A stretch of 34,504 nt of DNA from a virus. The notes below the pieces were generated by a model, which saw only the letters and a program-made list of their open reading frames with translations, had not been told where the DNA came from and made no database searches. The stretch lies in the IMG/VR virus record IMGVR_UViG_3300032241_001386, positions 1 to 34,504 of that record; one strand, 5' to 3'. How positions within the stretch are numbered: the first letter of the stretch is position 1; each line of letters starts with the position of its first letter. Of this stretch, positions 22,826 to 32,262 are shown in pieces. Made by a program: the position numbers and the translations under genes.

Positions 22826-22937
22826 TAGTAAGTGTGTAAAGAGGAAACGAGGTCCTCGCTGGGCACTATAAACATCTGGCAAACGGGCGGATACTTGGAT
22901 CAAACTTGTGGCGATAACGCAAGCGGTAAAATAAGTA
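22826..22937 (+). other. Region with small hairpins, no gene seen
   Basis: The stretch contains CGAG-GTC-CTCG at about 22848-22858 and a GCG-ATAA-CGC hairpin near 22913, but no convincing ORF and no T-arm. It leads directly into the tRNA-like helix and may be the 5' part of the same RNA. Confidence 0.35.
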
Positions 22938-23032
22938 ATAGTAAAGCATATGGGATGATCTAACTGGATAGGATGCGGGACAATAAGAGCCTGCTGTGTG
23001 AGTTCGAGTCTCACTCTAGTATGCTTTACTAT
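22938..23032 (+). ncRNA. tRNA-like element closed by a 13-bp helix
   Basis: ATAGTAAAGCATA (22938-22950) pairs perfectly with TATGCTTTACTAT (23020-23032). Inside, a perfect T-arm is present (GTGAG, loop TTCGAGT, CTCAC at 22998-23014), as well as a D-arm-like hairpin containing GG and a GCGGG/CCTGC stem with a 10-base loop in the anticodon position. There is no encoded CCA and no U before an anticodon, so it is unlikely to be a working tRNA. It may be a decoy, a tRNA-mimic domain of a larger RNA, or a decayed tRNA, though the perfect outer helix argues against decay. Confidence 0.6.
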
Positions 23033-23076
23033 ACCTTTTGGCAACAGAGGGTTAAAAACTTAAAAGAAAGAAATCA

Positions 23077-23548: not shown

Positions 23549-24808
23549 CTAACTTATATTTTTGATACCACCGTTAGTATTTAACGTGTCATGGTATTTT
23601 ACAACCACGTCCGCGCCATTGTTTATAATGAAGCTAGCAATAGAGTCCTGATCTTGTAATAAGGCATGCAAAACAAATTCATTGTTAGCATATTCTATAG
23701 CATAGTCAAGTATCTTAGTTGATTTTTCAAGCGTTTGTTTAAATTGTTCAACACCGAGTAATCGCCCGTCTACTCTTATTAAGCCTAATTCTCGCCCTAG
23801 AAATTTTAATTTATTGCCAATTAAACTTCCACGATCTTTTGTTAAAAACACAACATCGTCGGGTCGAGTAATCTTAATTATATCTCCAATGATTGCGATC
23901 TGATAATTAAGATTGATCCAATCAAATGGCAAATTTAAATCAGATACTGATTGCACTTTACGTACCGCCAGTGGCGGAAGACATTCTGTCAGTCCGTATA
24001 TATCGTATATACTTTCAACTTCACATTGATCTGTAATTAACGTTAAGAAAACAGATGATAGCATATTGCCGCCGGTGGTTAACACTCTTAATTTTTTAGG
24101 CAATGGCAAGAAACTTGTTGTATTAAAGAATTGTATATGTGTGGCATGTAGTATTTCTTCCTTCCAGGTATGGTCGGCTAGGCTAACAACTTGTGCCTTG
24201 AACAAGCCAGGAAGTATAGCAGTAGTGTGTACTCCCATATGAGCCATACCGTGCGAAAAAACACAATAATCGTCTTCAACAAAGAAAGAATCCATGGCTA
24301 ATTGTATACTTAATGACTCCAAATATGCCGACATAGACACAGGCTTAGGTTTACCAGTAGATCCTGATGTAAAAGCGTATACTATTTGTTTATCGGTGAA
24401 TGGTATATTAAGTTCTTCGTAACCGTTCCATTGAGCACAGGCATAAGCATGGTCCCATGTATCTGTTTGATGCAATTGATCAGTAACGTGATCTAAATTA
24501 ATAGTAGAGTGGTATAGATCACCGACTACAAATATAGAACTTACTCCGTGTTCCAAAATTAGTGTTTCGTTTATTTCTCGTCCCACAACACCAAGATGCT
24601 TGAATGATCGTTGACTTTTGTATAATGCAAGCAAAAATGCGATGCTACTAAAACTTAAGGTAGCATAGGCAACACCAATTGGTCCTTCATCTATTTTGTT
24701 AATTTTAGTTAACCAGTAACTGACCGCTTGTGCTATATCTTTGTAATTGTAATTGCGTCGGCGGTATCGTAAAATAAAATCATCGCGTATTCTAAAATTA
24801 TTTTCCAT
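23549..24808 (-). CDS. ANL-superfamily adenylation enzyme, short form
   Basis: The start at 24808 has an AGGA ribosome-binding site; an upstream in-frame start would overlap the membrane-protein gene. The 419-residue product has the core ANL motifs: TSGSTGKPKP at residues 147-156 (ATP phosphates), YGLTE near residue 270, and a late Arg/Gly segment (RVDGRLLGVEQ) like motif A8. These enzymes activate carboxylic acids as acyl-AMP. It is shorter than usual (500-600 residues) and the C-terminal Lys of motif A10 is not seen, so the second half-reaction may differ. It sits on the reverse strand between tRNA blocks, overlapping a DUF6356-like gene by 11 bases. Substrate unknown. Confidence 0.75.
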   Translation of the reverse strand: MENNFRIRDDFILRYRRRNYNYKDIAQAVSYWLTKINKIDEGPIGVAYATLSFSSIAFLLALYKSQRSFKHLGVVGREINETLILEHGVSSIFVVGDLYHSTINLDHVTDQLHQTDTWDHAYACAQWNGYEELNIPFTDKQIVYAFTSGSTGKPKPVSMSAYLESLSIQLAMDSFFVEDDYCVFSHGMAHMGVHTTAILPGLFKAQVVSLADHTWKEEILHATHIQFFNTTSFLPLPKKLRVLTTGGNMLSSVFLTLITDQCEVESIYDIYGLTECLPPLAVRKVQSVSDLNLPFDWINLNYQIAIIGDIIKITRPDDVVFLTKDRGSLIGNKLKFLGRELGLIRVDGRLLGVEQFKQTLEKSTKILDYAIEYANNEFVLHALLQDQDSIASFIINNGADVVVKYHDTLNTNGGIKNIS

Positions 24809-24992
24809 TGCGTATCCTAGCAAGTCGAGCCAATGCCTGTGTTTTACGTTCGCTGTAAGTGGTAAAAATGTCAGGAAATACAGCATGAACAATACTAATA
24901 ATACCAGCTGACAGTAATACAATGCCTGCACCAAACGCAAACTTAAAGTGTATCATATAGCAAGTATTTTTAGATTTTAAATGATTGAACAT
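24798..24992 (-). CDS. DUF6356-like small membrane protein
   Basis: This 64-residue protein has one membrane segment (AFGAGIVLLSAGIISIVHAVFP, about residues 19-40). The order H-x-x-x-AF-x-x-G, AG and HA-x-x-P followed by a short polar tail is what I recall for DUF6356 proteins. It shares 11 bases with the adenylation-enzyme start, so the two form one reverse-strand unit. On this strand TATAAATA lies at 25015-25008, a T4 late-promoter match close to the ATG. A partner role for the enzyme at the membrane is possible. Confidence 0.65.
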   Translation of the reverse strand: MFNHLKSKNTCYMIHFKFAFGAGIVLLSAGIISIVHAVFPDIFTTYSERKTQALARLARIRNGK

Positions 24993-25757: not shown

Positions 25758-25786
25758 TTGACCAGTAATTCAATATACCGTATAAT
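25758..25786 (+). promoter_or_regulatory. Strong sigma70-type promoter of a stable-RNA unit
   Basis: TTGACC at 25758-25763 and TATAAT at 25781-25786 with a 17-base spacer. The predicted start is near 25793, and a boxA lies just downstream, as in rRNA operons. Confidence 0.8.
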
Positions 25787-25807
25787 AGTTGTATATTAAG
25801 TAATAAC

Positions 25808-25819
25808 TGTTCTTTAACA
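25808..25819 (+). promoter_or_regulatory. rRNA-type boxA antitermination element
   Basis: TGTTCTTTAACA matches the bacterial rRNA boxA (TGCTCTTTAACA) in 11 of 12 positions. It lies about 15 bases after the predicted start, where NusB and S10 could load. The RNA downstream carries tRNA genes. Confidence 0.7.
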
Positions 25820-25856
25820 AATTGAGTAGCAAAATATAAGCCTTGTGAAAGTCGCT

Positions 25857-26019
25857 ATATTGAAGCACATTAGTCTAAAGGGTCACCCTCCACTTGGGAG
25901 TTTTGGGCGATTAGTGTGTTTCAATATGGTTGAAAGAATTGGCACCCTAACAAGTCCATTAGAGGCCTGACGCCCCTGTAAACCAATCAATACTGTTTAC
26001 GAACCGGGTCACTAATTTG
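25857..26019 (+). ncRNA. Structured leader RNA before the Asp-Glu-Gly-Trp-Cys tRNAs
   Basis: ATATTGAAGCACATTAGTC (25857-25875) pairs along all 19 positions (three G-U) with 25909-25927. The loop holds an AGGG/CCCT and a CTCC/GGAG hairpin. Further on, GTAAAC/GTTTAC forms another stem before tRNA-Asp. There is no ORF of note. It may be a processed leader like those of rRNA operons, or a separate small RNA. Confidence 0.55.
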
Positions 26020-26446: not shown

Positions 26447-27736
26447 TTAAATTTTTGACTTAAAATTTATTTTACAAGCATGATAATAATTTTTATCAGA
26501 CTCTGATAAACAGTTCCATAGACGTGAGTTAAACACACTTGCGTCTTGTTTTGTTCTTACGTCCCATTCGGCGGTTTCTTTTAGGTATGCACGAAACATA
26601 TCTAAGTTTTCTATATCTGAATTACAAAATTCAATAAAGTTCGACATGTTATTTTTTGCATGTTGCTCGATGCGAATTTTTTTGTTATCTAATATAGGAT
26701 GTTTAGTAATGTTATTGATGTACGTTTTTAAGTTTTGCTTATATAAATTTGGTAATATTTTAATTTCATAAAATTCTTTATTCATTAGTAAAACAGGAGA
26801 GAATCCTATACTTGGCCAATCTTTTGCTGTGCTGGTTTGATGCCAATAATCTAATATGTCATTGATGTAGAAAATATTGTTTAAGTAAGTTACAAAAGTA
26901 ACAGTATATTCAATATCAGTGTGCTGGAAAAAACAATCTAAATTGGTTTCTATTTTACTAAATTTTGCAGGCCATCTAAGATATTCGTAATTTTGATCAA
27001 CACTATCAATACTAAGAAAGATATGTGTGTTAAATAATTCTAATTTATCTACTATACGTTTAATATAAGAAGTACCATTTGTAGTCAGTATAATATTAAT
27101 ATTAAAATATTCTTTTTCAATCATATAATCTAATAGACGTTCTAGACCGGGTTGAATCATTGTTTCGCCACCCATTAATTGCAGTTGTATACCATCACTT
27201 AGACTATTGAGTATAAATTGCCATTCTTTGGGTATATCGCTTCGGTCAACGGTATAATTAGTCAACGGACCCTCGACAGTATTGGTCATTTTGGCATATA
27301 GACTACTATCCCAAGGAAAACAAGAACGACAACTAAGATTACATAGATTACTAAATTGTAAAAGGATTTCTTTTATTTTTAATTCTTTGTTGGGATAATT
27401 TGTAACAACATCTTTAACATAATCTTTATCAGGCCCATTTAATCTTATTTGGCTGTACATTATTCTATCACTGGTAGCACCCCATTCTTCGGTTTGGTAA
27501 CAATGAGCACAACCTTTGTGTTTCTGTCCATTGACTATATCAGTTCGGAGTTCGGTAAATTGTTTGCCAAGCCAAACATTTTCGGTAAATTTTGGTTTGT
27601 TTGTACTTCTCCAATAACAACAAGGGCCAATTTCGCCAACGTGATTAAATAAATTTGTAAATGGCAAAGGGCAAAAACTGGGATTATCTTTAATCCATTG
27701 TAATTGGTCTTCGGTTTCTTTGGGAAATTGTATCAT
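26447..27736 (-). CDS. Radical SAM protein with N-terminal auxiliary Cys domain
   Basis: The 429-residue protein has N-terminal cysteines at Cys22, Cys39-40, Cys76 and Cys79 (FCPLPF, then PCCYW, then C-x2-C), the pattern of a twitch/SPASM-like auxiliary domain, followed by the radical-SAM motif CNLSCRSC at Cys132, Cys136 and Cys139 and a GGE-type motif (MGGETM). It shares this order with the proteins at 9901 and 11027, but the DNA is more AT-rich. It is alone on the reverse strand between the tRNA-Cys and the DUF7448-like gene. An ATAAATA string precedes its start on this strand. Possible targets include a peptide, sugar or nucleotide; none is shown by context. Confidence 0.78.
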   Translation of the reverse strand: MIQFPKETEDQLQWIKDNPSFCPLPFTNLFNHVGEIGPCCYWRSTNKPKFTENVWLGKQFTELRTDIVNGQKHKGCAHCYQTEEWGATSDRIMYSQIRLNGPDKDYVKDVVTNYPNKELKIKEILLQFSNLCNLSCRSCFPWDSSLYAKMTNTVEGPLTNYTVDRSDIPKEWQFILNSLSDGIQLQLMGGETMIQPGLERLLDYMIEKEYFNINIILTTNGTSYIKRIVDKLELFNTHIFLSIDSVDQNYEYLRWPAKFSKIETNLDCFFQHTDIEYTVTFVTYLNNIFYINDILDYWHQTSTAKDWPSIGFSPVLLMNKEFYEIKILPNLYKQNLKTYINNITKHPILDNKKIRIEQHAKNNMSNFIEFCNSDIENLDMFRAYLKETAEWDVRTKQDASVFNSRLWNCLSESDKNYYHACKINFKSKI

Positions 27737-28882: not shown

Positions 28883-28994
28883 TTGCTGACCCACATCTAG
28901 CAATAGAAGTCATTCAGCATCCGCCGGGGCGAAACGTGGGATGGGCTGCCGTCTGCGGGGTTTGATAGTTTTCCTGACACAAAAAAAACTATCA
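28883..28994 (+). other. Gap with inverted repeats before a stable-RNA promoter
   Basis: No gene seen. ATTGCT/AGCAAT near the start and TGATAGTTTT (28963-28972) with AAAACTATCA (28985-28994) are inverted repeats. The second ends exactly at the -35 element of the next promoter, so it could be an operator or a weak terminator. Confidence 0.4.
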
Positions 28995-29023
28995 TTGACA
29001 CACAGTTATAAACATAGTATAAT
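28995..29023 (+). promoter_or_regulatory. Perfect sigma70 consensus promoter
   Basis: TTGACA (28995-29000), a 17-base spacer and TATAAT (29018-29023). The predicted start is near 29030, seven bases before the 5' arm of the structured RNA. Confidence 0.85.
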
Positions 29024-29036
29024 TAATTTAAGATGT

Positions 29037-29312
29037 AAAAAGTTTGGGTACAGGGGTGACGCCCATCTGATACTAGTATAAGGCCGAGTATGTAGCATTG
29101 CAAAACAGTCGCTCGAAAATTTTGCAATATCGGGTATTCCCGAAGCGGCACCAGTATTTTAAAGCTACGAAATAGCCGACATTTTGTTAAAACGTACAAC
29201 GAATGGTTTTTTGCAGACCGATGTATTTGTTATACGGTACCGAGCTCGGGAGAACGTCCCGGGGGTGAACAATTTACAGTTGTAAAGCAGATTTTATGTA
29301 CCCAAACTTTTT
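29037..29312 (+). ncRNA. 276-nt structured RNA closed by a 16-bp helix
   Basis: AAAAAGTTTGGGTACA (29037-29052) is perfectly complementary to 29297-29312. Between them lie ATTGCAAAA/TTTTGCAAT (about 29097-29130), CGGG-TATT-CCCG, a palindromic ATACTAGTAT, GGG/CCC around 29054-29063, and TTTACA/TGTAAA near 29274-29287. No ORF of note fills the region. A consensus promoter lies just upstream and tRNA-Leu begins seven bases after it. It does not match the conserved parts of RNase P, tmRNA or 6S RNA as I know them. Ornate phage RNAs next to tRNAs (GOLLD, ROOL) are larger. Likely a new phage RNA. Confidence 0.7.
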
Positions 29313-29319
29313 AGATTTT

Positions 29320-29404
29320 GCGTCTGTGATGTAATTGGTAGCCATGCGAGTCTTAGAAGCTCGTGCCGTAAGGCGTGTCAGTTCGAGTCTGACCAGACGC
29401 ACCA
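29320..29404 (+). tRNA. tRNA-Leu (anticodon UAG)
   Basis: Acceptor GCGTCTG with CAGACGC, anticodon loop CTTAGAA, long variable arm, A73, encoded CCA. It follows the structured RNA and probably shares its transcript. Confidence 0.94.
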
Positions 29405-29582: not shown

Positions 29583-29676
29583 GGAGAGCTGGCCGAGTGG
29601 TCGAAGGCACCTCCCTGCTAAGGAGGCATATGGGCTTAAACCTGTATCGAGGGTTCGAATCCCTCGTTCTCCGCCA
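29583..29676 (+). tRNA. tRNA-Ser (anticodon GCU)
   Basis: Acceptor GGAGAGC with GTTCTCC, anticodon loop CTGCTAA, long variable arm, G73 and encoded CCA. Ends just before the convergent PP-loop gene. Confidence 0.95.
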
Positions 29677-29677
29677 A

Positions 29678-30964
29678 TTAGTAAATTACTATTTGTCCTT
29701 TGATTACGTGTCTATGTTGTTTAACAGAGGATGGATTTTGATCTAAAGATAAAGATTTTGTTTTAAATCCTTTATTGTTTTGTTCAATGATACTATCGCC
29801 AATATAGTAATACGGACTTCCAAATATACCTATTTCATCTGGTTTTCCATTTGTTAAACTTATATACTTAGAATCTAGATTATCTAGCAAATATGTAATC
29901 CCAGACTCCCAGACAGAATATAATTTAGTATCTTTAAAATTAACGTGAAACCAATAATCCATCTGATTGAATATATTACTAGTAGGTTTTAAAGTTTGAA
30001 AAGTATGAAAATCATAATCTGGGTATATAATGTATTTAACTATTTGTTCGTATACAGTACGCCTAGCCAGATTATTGTTAGGCCATTGTAATACTCCTCG
30101 CATTTGAGAATTTTGTGGCATACTAAACCAACGTTTAACTTCATGTGCTTGTTTGGCTATTAGCTCAGGGCAATCAGGAGACCAATAAAAAAATTCATTT
30201 GTAATGTTAGTATAGTCATCTATTACTTGATTATTGTGGTTGGCTATTCCGTCTAAGAAAAATAAAAAAATTTTATCGTCTTTAATGCAAATTTTAGGTT
30301 TATCAACTCCATAAATTACGCACATTTTATATACCCGATCAGCAGTATTTTTATTATTAATAAGATGTTTAAATTTACTAGAATGACCGGGTTGTAAATA
30401 ATGTCTGGTGCGAAAGATCCACGACTCGTCTTTATCGTCGGATTCTTTAATCATATCTTCTGTATAATCATGCACTGTAATTTTAGTCTCGGGATAGTTA
30501 GTAGCAATCCAGTTCAACAAAGGCTTTGCCGCAAATTCCCATTCGCTTAAAGTATTCTCGGGCCGAGTATCAGTTGGATCACCTGATACCCCTTTTTCTC
30601 CCTGTTTAGGGTATCGAAAGATCACTTCGTCTAGGTGTATACCATTGAGTAAAAAGCTGTAAGCAACAGTGGTACTATCACTACCACCACTAAGTTCTAG
30701 TCTAATATAATCATAGGTGTCACGTAGTTGTTGAGCACGTCGACGATATAATTCTCGCAATGATTCTTCGGGTTCTATGTGCCATGGGTATTTAACAAAT
30801 ACATCTTCATTAAAGAACCATGTAACGTCTAGGTTCTTTTTTGAGGCCTCAATTAAGGCCTGTATTTTATTGTAATATATTTCGTCGCCTACTAGATAAT
30901 ATCCTAGTTTTTTATTAGGGTCAAATTTAACACCAGCATGGGAAGTATGTTCTATTTTGTTCAT
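29678..30964 (-). CDS. PP-loop ATPase, asparagine-synthase-like (paralogue 2)
   Basis: The 428-residue protein has the pyrophosphate-binding loop SGGSDSTT at residues 92-99 behind a 75-residue N-terminal domain, as in the copy at 15375, and continues with the shared ENTLSE(W/Y)(E/K)FAA(K/Q)PLL and HDYTEDM blocks. It should activate a substrate by adenylation; no glutaminase or ammonia-producing domain is present. It starts at a TAATG overlap with paralogue 3 upstream, so the pair is co-translated. The two are alike over almost the full length, in DNA as well as protein, which points to a recent tandem duplication. It converges on a tRNA-Ser gene one base away. Confidence 0.75.
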   Translation of the reverse strand: MNKIEHTSHAGVKFDPNKKLGYYLVGDEIYYNKIQALIEASKKNLDVTWFFNEDVFVKYPWHIEPEESLRELYRRRAQQLRDTYDYIRLELSGGSDSTTVAYSFLLNGIHLDEVIFRYPKQGEKGVSGDPTDTRPENTLSEWEFAAKPLLNWIATNYPETKITVHDYTEDMIKESDDKDESWIFRTRHYLQPGHSSKFKHLINNKNTADRVYKMCVIYGVDKPKICIKDDKIFLFFLDGIANHNNQVIDDYTNITNEFFYWSPDCPELIAKQAHEVKRWFSMPQNSQMRGVLQWPNNNLARRTVYEQIVKYIIYPDYDFHTFQTLKPTSNIFNQMDYWFHVNFKDTKLYSVWESGITYLLDNLDSKYISLTNGKPDEIGIFGSPYYYIGDSIIEQNNKGFKTKSLSLDQNPSSVKQHRHVIKGQIVIY

Positions 30965-32262
30965 TAGTAAATTACCAGTTTGCCATTGATTATATGCCTA
31001 CTCTGTCTAGGTGCATAATCAAGGGTTTGACTTAATCTTAACGATTTTGTATTAAAACCAGACACATTGTGATGTGCAAACTTGTCATCCGCAAAATAAT
31101 AATACATACTTTCAAACATTTGAATGTCTGTTGGGCGACCTAATCGTTTGCCCACGTATTGTGGATCAATATTATCTAGAAAATAGTTAATCCCTGATTC
31201 CCACGCAGCATACAAGTTAGTTTCTTTGAAGTTTTGATGAAACCATTGATCCATCTCGTTGTATATATTATTAGTGGGTTTGTTGGTCTGGAATGTATGA
31301 AAATCATAGTCGGGATATACAATACGTTTTACAAGTAGTTCATAAAATGTACGCACAGCAAAACTAGAGTTAGGCCATTGTAATACTCCTCGCATTTGAG
31401 AATTTTGCGGCATATCAAACCAACGTTTAATTTCGTGTGCTTGTTTGGCTATTAGTTTGGTACATTCTGGAGCCCAAAAAAAGAATTCATTTACAACATC
31501 TGATGTTTCTGCAGCAATTTCATTGGTATAACTAGCGATCCCGTCCTGAAAATATAAAAAGAATTTATCATCTTTGATAAAAATTTTAGCCTTGTCGACC
31601 CCGTATAACAAACACATTTTATTAGTTTGATTTAATAATTGTTGATGTTCTTTTAAGTGTCGATCTTCAAACTTATGTATATGTCCTGGTTGCAAATAGT
31701 GTTTAGTTCGAAAAATCCATGATTCATCTTTTGAGCCAGCTTCGGCTATCATATCTTCTGTATAATCATGTACAGTAATTTTAGTCTCGGGATAATTAGT
31801 AGCTATCCAGTTCAACAAAGGCTTTGCCGCAAATTCCCATTCGCTTAAAGTATTCTCGGCATGAGTATTATACGGATTTCCTGTCATACCTTTTTCTCCT
31901 TGTTTGGGATAACGAAAGATCACTTCGTCTAGATGTATGTTATTAAGTAAAAAACTATAAGCAACCGTAGTGCTATCACTACCACCACTAAGTTCTAGTC
32001 TAATATAATCATAGGTGTCACGTAATTGTTGAGCACGTTGACGATATAATTCTCGTAATGATTCTTCAGGCTCAATATGCCAGGGATATTTAACAAACAC
32101 ATCTTCATTAAAGAACCATGTAACGTCTAGGTTCTTTTTTGAGGCATCTATTAGAGCTTGTATTTTATTGTAATATATTTCGTCGCCTACAAGATAATAG
32201 CCTAGTTTTTTATTAGGTTCAAACTTAACGCCAGCGTGGGAAGTGTGTTCTATTTTGTTCAT
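30964..32262 (-). CDS. PP-loop ATPase, asparagine-synthase-like (paralogue 3)
   Basis: At 432 residues this is the upstream member of the tandem pair. The N-terminal 95 residues are almost identical to paralogue 2, including SGGSDSTT at 92-99. The two differ most in the middle (about residues 195-260), the part facing the substrate in related folds, so specificity may have diverged. Its start lies about 95 bases from a divergent tRNA-Thr gene; an AATAAATA string lies upstream on this strand and no good ribosome-binding site is seen. With paralogue 1 beside the CAU tRNA, all three PP-loop genes border tRNA genes. Confidence 0.75.
   Translation of the reverse strand: MNKIEHTSHAGVKFEPNKKLGYYLVGDEIYYNKIQALIDASKKNLDVTWFFNEDVFVKYPWHIEPEESLRELYRQRAQQLRDTYDYIRLELSGGSDSTTVAYSFLLNNIHLDEVIFRYPKQGEKGMTGNPYNTHAENTLSEWEFAAKPLLNWIATNYPETKITVHDYTEDMIAEAGSKDESWIFRTKHYLQPGHIHKFEDRHLKEHQQLLNQTNKMCLLYGVDKAKIFIKDDKFFLYFQDGIASYTNEIAAETSDVVNEFFFWAPECTKLIAKQAHEIKRWFDMPQNSQMRGVLQWPNSSFAVRTFYELLVKRIVYPDYDFHTFQTNKPTNNIYNEMDQWFHQNFKETNLYAAWESGINYFLDNIDPQYVGKRLGRPTDIQMFESMYYYFADDKFAHHNVSGFNTKSLRLSQTLDYAPRQSRHIINGKLVIY

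Follow-up and report, generated by a model that had tools for sequence, protein, structure and literature searches.

We describe what we take to be a discrete, probably abundant phage noncoding RNA of approximately 250-280 nt, encoded in the tRNA region of an uncultured jumbo-phage clade, a reading to which we give a probability of roughly three in four. Judged from sequence, it is a real functional RNA, because paired mutations across 15 phage sequences have maintained its fold, including the helix that joins its ends.

A sealed structured element between a promoter and a tRNA-Leu gene

The window, by which we mean the whole 34.5-kb viral record analysed, carries approximately 21 tRNA genes. 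An earlier note had pointed to a structured RNA devoid of ORFs at 29037-29312, sealed by a perfect 16-bp helix, preceded by a consensus promoter and followed seven bases later by tRNA-Leu, and all of these features were recovered. The first and last 16 bases of the segment are perfectly complementary and an extra pair (29036/29313) lengthens the sealing helix to 17 bp. No other perfect inverted repeat of at least 13 nt with an arm spacing of 150-400 nt occurs in the window; in first-order Markov simulations, a 14-nt repeat is expected 0.015 times per window and a 16-nt repeat appeared in 0 of 200 runs. The segment folds with a minimum free energy of -82.9 kcal/mol (z = -3.4), an equally good fold being obtained in 1 of 200 shuffles. 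No ORF of at least 60 aa lies within it, minus-strand ORFs of 58 aa overlap its ends, and no conserved ORF was seen in the RNA family. The promoter (TTGACA at 28995-29000, a 17-nt spacer, TATAAT at 29018-29023) ends 13 nt before the RNA and is one of only two perfect TTGACA-N17-TATAAT sites in the window, counting both strands, while tRNA-Leu(tag) starts 7 nt past the RNA end. The parts of the locus are listed below.

28995-29023, plus strand: consensus sigma70-type promoter; same perfect form in L086, L009 and L144, near-perfect in L123 and L162
29037-29312, plus strand: structured noncoding RNA of a 15-member family (covariance models R1-R3)
29037-29052, plus strand: 5' arm of the sealing helix P1, paired with 29297-29312; two-sided changes in 7/16 pairs
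29053-29064, plus strand: P2 hairpin, GGG[GUGACG]CCC; covarying pairs 2/3, loop KUGRCR in most members
29065-29077, plus strand: 5' strands of P3a (AUCUG) and P3b (ACU-A-GU), around invariant GAUAC; partners 29288-29292 and 29276-29280, covarying in 4/10 pairs
29092-29168, plus strand: P5 (29092-29096/29164-29168), enclosing P6 and P6a; P5 covarying pairs 5/5
29108-29112/29145-29149, plus strand: P6; covarying pairs 2/5
29130-29134/29139-29143, plus strand: P6a hairpin, loop UAUU; covarying pairs 2/5
29169-29275, plus strand: variable 3' domain with hairpins unlike between two clades (clade-specific consensus folds, MAFFT alignments)
29276-29292, plus strand: 3' strands of P3b and P3a, conserved GU-Y-G-N-AAAGCA (alignment)
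29297-29312, plus strand: 3' arm of P1 (alignment)
29320-29404, plus strand: tRNA-Leu (tag), opening a run of four tRNAs that ends at 29676 (tRNA calls); its 5' processing would set the RNA 3' end

A 9-bp hairpin (29097-29105/29120-29128, ATTGCAAAA/TTTTGCAAT) that is strong in the minimum free energy fold of the window RNA was rejected as part of the core, being unconserved. Two extra self-matches that could be read as a second RNA copy correspond to the P1 arms, and each contig carries a single copy.

Other elements of the window were also recorded. A second conserved structured element, present as well in L086 and L144, occupies 28885-28990, between the phosphoesterase stop codon and the RNA promoter; it displays the motifs GACCCACA, CGAAACGUGGGAUGGGCUG and CCUGAC, shows compensatory changes at some pairs, may form a CCCAC/GUGGG pseudoknot and has no match in Rfam. 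At 22933-23037 lies an element resembling a tRNA, in which a T-arm-like GUGAGUUCGAGUCUCAC accompanies an acceptor-like helix of unusual length (18-nt arms, 89% complementary); neither ARAGORN nor Rfam returned a tRNA call for it. Ahead of tRNA-Asp, at 25760-25935, a promoter-like sequence is accompanied by a boxA-like GTTCTTTAACA and by a long hairpin (25857-25875/25909-25927), a combination that looks like an rRNA-type antitermination leader. Large minus-strand genes (23549-24940, 26447-27736 and 29678-32262) are found between the tRNA blocks, and their products include an AMP-binding enzyme and a radical SAM protein, together with two proteins (428 and 432 aa) that received no assignment.

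Relatives in viral contigs

Relatives were searched for by pattern scans of IMG/VR and iterative covariance models. The phosphoesterase gene upstream of the RNA led to 80 loci, among which L009 carries the RNA, with approximately 70% identity, before the same tRNA-Leu. Conserved-block patterns added L086/L087, and covariance model R1, built from three sequences, retrieved L083 (57 bits, E ~6e-17), where the RNA has no adjoining tRNA; its contig measures 374 kb, the largest size reached in the clade. Strict core patterns gave at most three relatives each and were therefore relaxed, which together with model R2 brought the family to 15 distinct sequences, namely that of the window and 14 further relatives, 54-99% identical and all from viral contigs. 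Duplicate loci are counted outside the 15 (L087 = L086, L107 = L083, L115 = L113). The window RNA scores 231-309 bits with covariance models R1-R3, and the R2 scores of the relatives range from 120 to 306 bits as compared to less than 20 bits for chance matches.

The L086 contig (IMGVR_UViG_3300006127_000024, 1-1740) has at its start a phosphoesterase tail that shares 96.5% identity with its window counterpart; unrelated DNA and then a second tail come next, an arrangement that reflects either an insertion/duplication or an assembly chimera.

Searches in bacteria and in known phages gave no relatives. None of 18 pattern matches in bacterial genome contigs corresponded to the RNA, and it was found in none of 150 bacterial genomes of one phylum, scanned without a positive control. 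The jumbo phage isolates PA5oct, Phosso, Vibrio 2.275.O, Munch, Atu_ph07 and GAP32 contain no significant model match, and blastn searches with the window and L083 RNAs against named phages, and with the window RNA against plasmids, returned nothing or short chance matches. A literature search of open-licence papers yielded no description of the family.

A locus of one jumbo-phage clade

The terminase large subunit (TerL) of the window is of T4 type and 53% identical to that of jumbo phage PA5oct. The seven other contigs that carry both TerL and the RNA have TerLs sharing 68-69% identity with that of the window. In all eight records TerL and the RNA are on the same strand, with the RNA 25-38 kb further downstream (26 kb in the window). 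On these sequence grounds the RNA occupies an orthologous locus within a single clade of jumbo phages, membership being judged where TerL could be compared, and its borders are conserved whereas its neighbours are not. The RNA accompanies the phosphoesterase in only 2 of the 80 loci, and G006, with a TerL 72% identical, spans the syntenic region and lacks it; its absence from most phosphoesterase loci and from G006 indicates that the wider group can do without it.

Paired mutations preserve the fold

In alignment A7 of the 15 sequences, which was fitted to the structure of the covariance model and is biased to that extent, 98.9% of 642 core cells pair as compared to 35-39% when partners are slid by 1-3 columns, and two-sided changes occur in 22 of the 44 core pairs and in 71 cells, either number being reached by 0 of 500 shuffles. 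MAFFT alignments made without the covariance model agree, with two-sided changes in 22/78, 24/64 and 34/72 pairs. Compensatory change in the sealing helix P1, a check proposed in the earlier note, was observed at 7 of its 16 pairs, with 99.6% of cells paired across the 15 sequences; one of its segments reads GGGUACA/UGUACCC in the window, AGACACA/UGUGUCU in L009 and GAGCACA/UGUGCUC in L083. It is to be noted that the retrieval patterns fixed GUUU in the 5' arm of P1 or AAAC in the 3' arm, so that the invariance of those pairs is no proof. The last two patterns constrained one arm only, and the complementarity of the other arm was thus not imposed.

The conserved core consists of P1, P2, P3a/b, P5, P6 and P6a. 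P1 (16 bp) closes the molecule and P2 is a 3-bp hairpin. P3a (AUCUG/CAGAU) is separated by an asymmetric internal loop (AU / YGNAAAG) from P3b, which reads ACY-N-GU/AC-RGU in most members and has a GG/CC extension in many. P5 encloses P6 and the apical hairpin P6a (consensus UCGGR-NNNN-YCCGA), and the 3' domain differs between two clades. A pseudoknot between AGUA, before P5, and the P6a loop UAYU was considered and set aside: although visual inspection fits it to most members, it is incompatible with P5 in L083 and received no clear support in the covariation scan.

Conserved borders and varied neighbours

A sigma70-like promoter ends 8-28 nt upstream of P1 in 11 of the 15 members, perfect in four, near-perfect in two and weaker in the others. 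In the remaining four (L113, L154, L160 and L161), P1 starts 5-10 nt after tRNA-Ser and no promoter was seen. A tRNA lies within 20 nt of the RNA in 8/15 members, and tRNA-Leu or tRNA-Thr follows it at 6-20 nt in 6/15. The description of the RNA as leading a tRNA block therefore holds for the window and its nearest relatives, while other members sit between or after tRNAs or beside protein genes.

These arrangements bear on whether the RNA could be a cis-acting leader of an untranslated tRNA block, i.e. a put-like processive antitermination or transcript-stabilising element through which RNA polymerase would escape Rho. Its position between a strong promoter and tRNA-Leu in the window, L086, L009 and L144 is what such a leader would predict, but the RNA follows tRNA-Ser instead of heading the transcript in L113, L154, L160 and L161, and no tRNA comes directly after it in L083, L112, L119, L120, L122 and L162. 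As the tRNA stretch downstream is moreover only approximately 360 nt long in the window and two genes long in L009, we regard this explanation as unlikely.

The downstream feature differs by member and may be a tRNA, a DctP-like gene, a 53-aa ORF or other genes, with no conserved class of downstream gene among members, which is evidence against a dedicated cis-regulator. A riboswitch or 5'-UTR regulator of the next gene could be suspected in L112, L113, L119, L120 and L122, where a DctP-like gene starts approximately 40-80 nt past the RNA; in L083, however, the DctP-like gene is upstream, elsewhere the next feature is one of the others just named, and the conserved structure stops at P1, with no conserved terminator or RBS-sequestering helix seen beyond it. 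We consider such a regulator very improbable.

Solute-binding protein genes of DctP and TctC type were noted near the RNA in L122 (4604-5602), L112 (4176-5183), L083 (7756-8712) and L123 (2988-3893), as assigned by Pfam matches except for the L083 copy, which was judged by eye and has no obvious signal peptide. In L123 (about 890-1420), an ORF separates a partial tRNA-Leu, directly 3' of the RNA, from a full tRNA-Leu further on, which looks like a gene insertion into a tRNA (compare segB in the T4 tRNA cluster).

The observation that borders are conserved, neighbours vary and each contig has one copy argues for a discrete RNA acting in trans.

Comparison with known RNA families

The window RNA has no match in Rfam 15 at gathering thresholds. 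At E<=10, four members (the window RNA and three relatives) gave only a chance mir-84 match well short of the threshold and one fragment under a tRNA, and recognisable GOLLD, ROOL, RNase P, tmRNA and 6S RNAs, each of which has an Rfam family, are thereby excluded. This search, which the earlier note had named beforehand, upholds its view that the element belongs to none of these families, and the lack of an Rfam family together with a conserved, covarying structure supports its suggestion of a possible new class of phage RNA. ARAGORN made no tmRNA call.

ROOL RNAs are longer than the jumbo-phage RNA and differ from it in conserved sequence and architecture. They are ornate phage or prophage RNAs of unknown function, often near tRNA islands, and GOLLD is a phage RNA found near tRNA islands whose expression rises during phage lysis (PMC12286853). 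Many GOLLD members exceed 800 nt, tRNAs can sit inside the GOLLD linker, and GOLLD shares neither its length nor its sequence with the jumbo-phage RNA. The same setting (PMC12286853), an ornate multi-helix fold, sealed ends and a strong promoter would suit a small RNA of GOLLD/ROOL kind, that is a self-assembling homo-oligomer or cage. The jumbo-phage RNA is nevertheless much shorter, the GOLLD and ROOL covariance models were unmatched at gathering thresholds or E<=10 in the four members, and the covariation scan revealed no outstanding extra conserved helix or kissing loop, which makes an assembly of this kind quite doubtful.

P1-sealed ends, the long-range P3 pairing and a location in tRNA operons recall RNase P RNA and could suggest a ribozyme, either RNase P-like or self-cleaving, acting on phage tRNAs. 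Against this, no RNase P or other ribozyme model matched the four members at E<=10, the CR-I/CR-V landmarks were not seen, and a probably high expression level would favour use in stoichiometric amounts over catalysis; we find a ribozyme scarcely credible.

The nearest precedent in kind is provided by RNAC and RNAD of phage T4, without sequence relation: the T4 genome (NC_000866) matched neither model R2 nor R3, and homology to these RNAs was thus not found. T4 RNAC and RNAD are late RNAs of unknown function, checked by Northern analysis (PMC9697503), and the T4 annotation places rnaC and rnaD as small stable RNAs directly adjoining tRNA-Arg in the tRNA cluster. A place in or adjoining a tRNA cluster, a few nucleotides from a tRNA, is common to them and to the jumbo-phage RNA in the 8 members where a tRNA lies within 20 nt. 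RNAC (species 1, 139 nt) and RNAD (species 2, 119 nt) are, however, half as long and classed as late, whereas the jumbo-phage RNA has perfect sigma70-type promoters in four members.

Proposed production and role

The spacing suggests that the RNA is produced from its own promoter or released from tRNA transcripts. Host RNA polymerase would transcribe it in either form, and tRNA-processing nucleases would free it, with RNase P cleaving at the 5' end of the next tRNA and 3' trimming occurring after tRNA-Ser. P1 would then tie and protect the ends, allowing a stable RNA to accumulate as with T4 RNAC/RNAD, and the RNA would act during infection by binding its partner stoichiometrically. The strength of the consensus promoters suggests an abundant product and, by extension, a stoichiometric role.

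As the most likely mode we tentatively propose, at clearly less than even odds, that the RNA acts in trans and in stoichiometric amounts, and that its fixed core binds, as scaffold or decoy, a protein or RNP of host or phage origin that takes part in translation or tRNA metabolism; the choice of this target is a guess consistent with the setting. It is likewise possible, again at clearly less than even odds, that jumbo phages use this RNA as a new class, unrelated to known families, which in trans would divert or protect translation or tRNA metabolism. It may for instance act as a decoy against a host defence nuclease that targets RNA, or as an RNP scaffold.

Stable RNAs with no known function have been recognised in phage tRNA clusters since T4. 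The present RNA is a separate, covariation-supported jumbo-phage family absent from Rfam 15, and its defined ends, fixed core and calibrated model make it searchable in infection transcriptomes and genetically testable, offering an independent handle on why structured RNAs sit among phage tRNAs.
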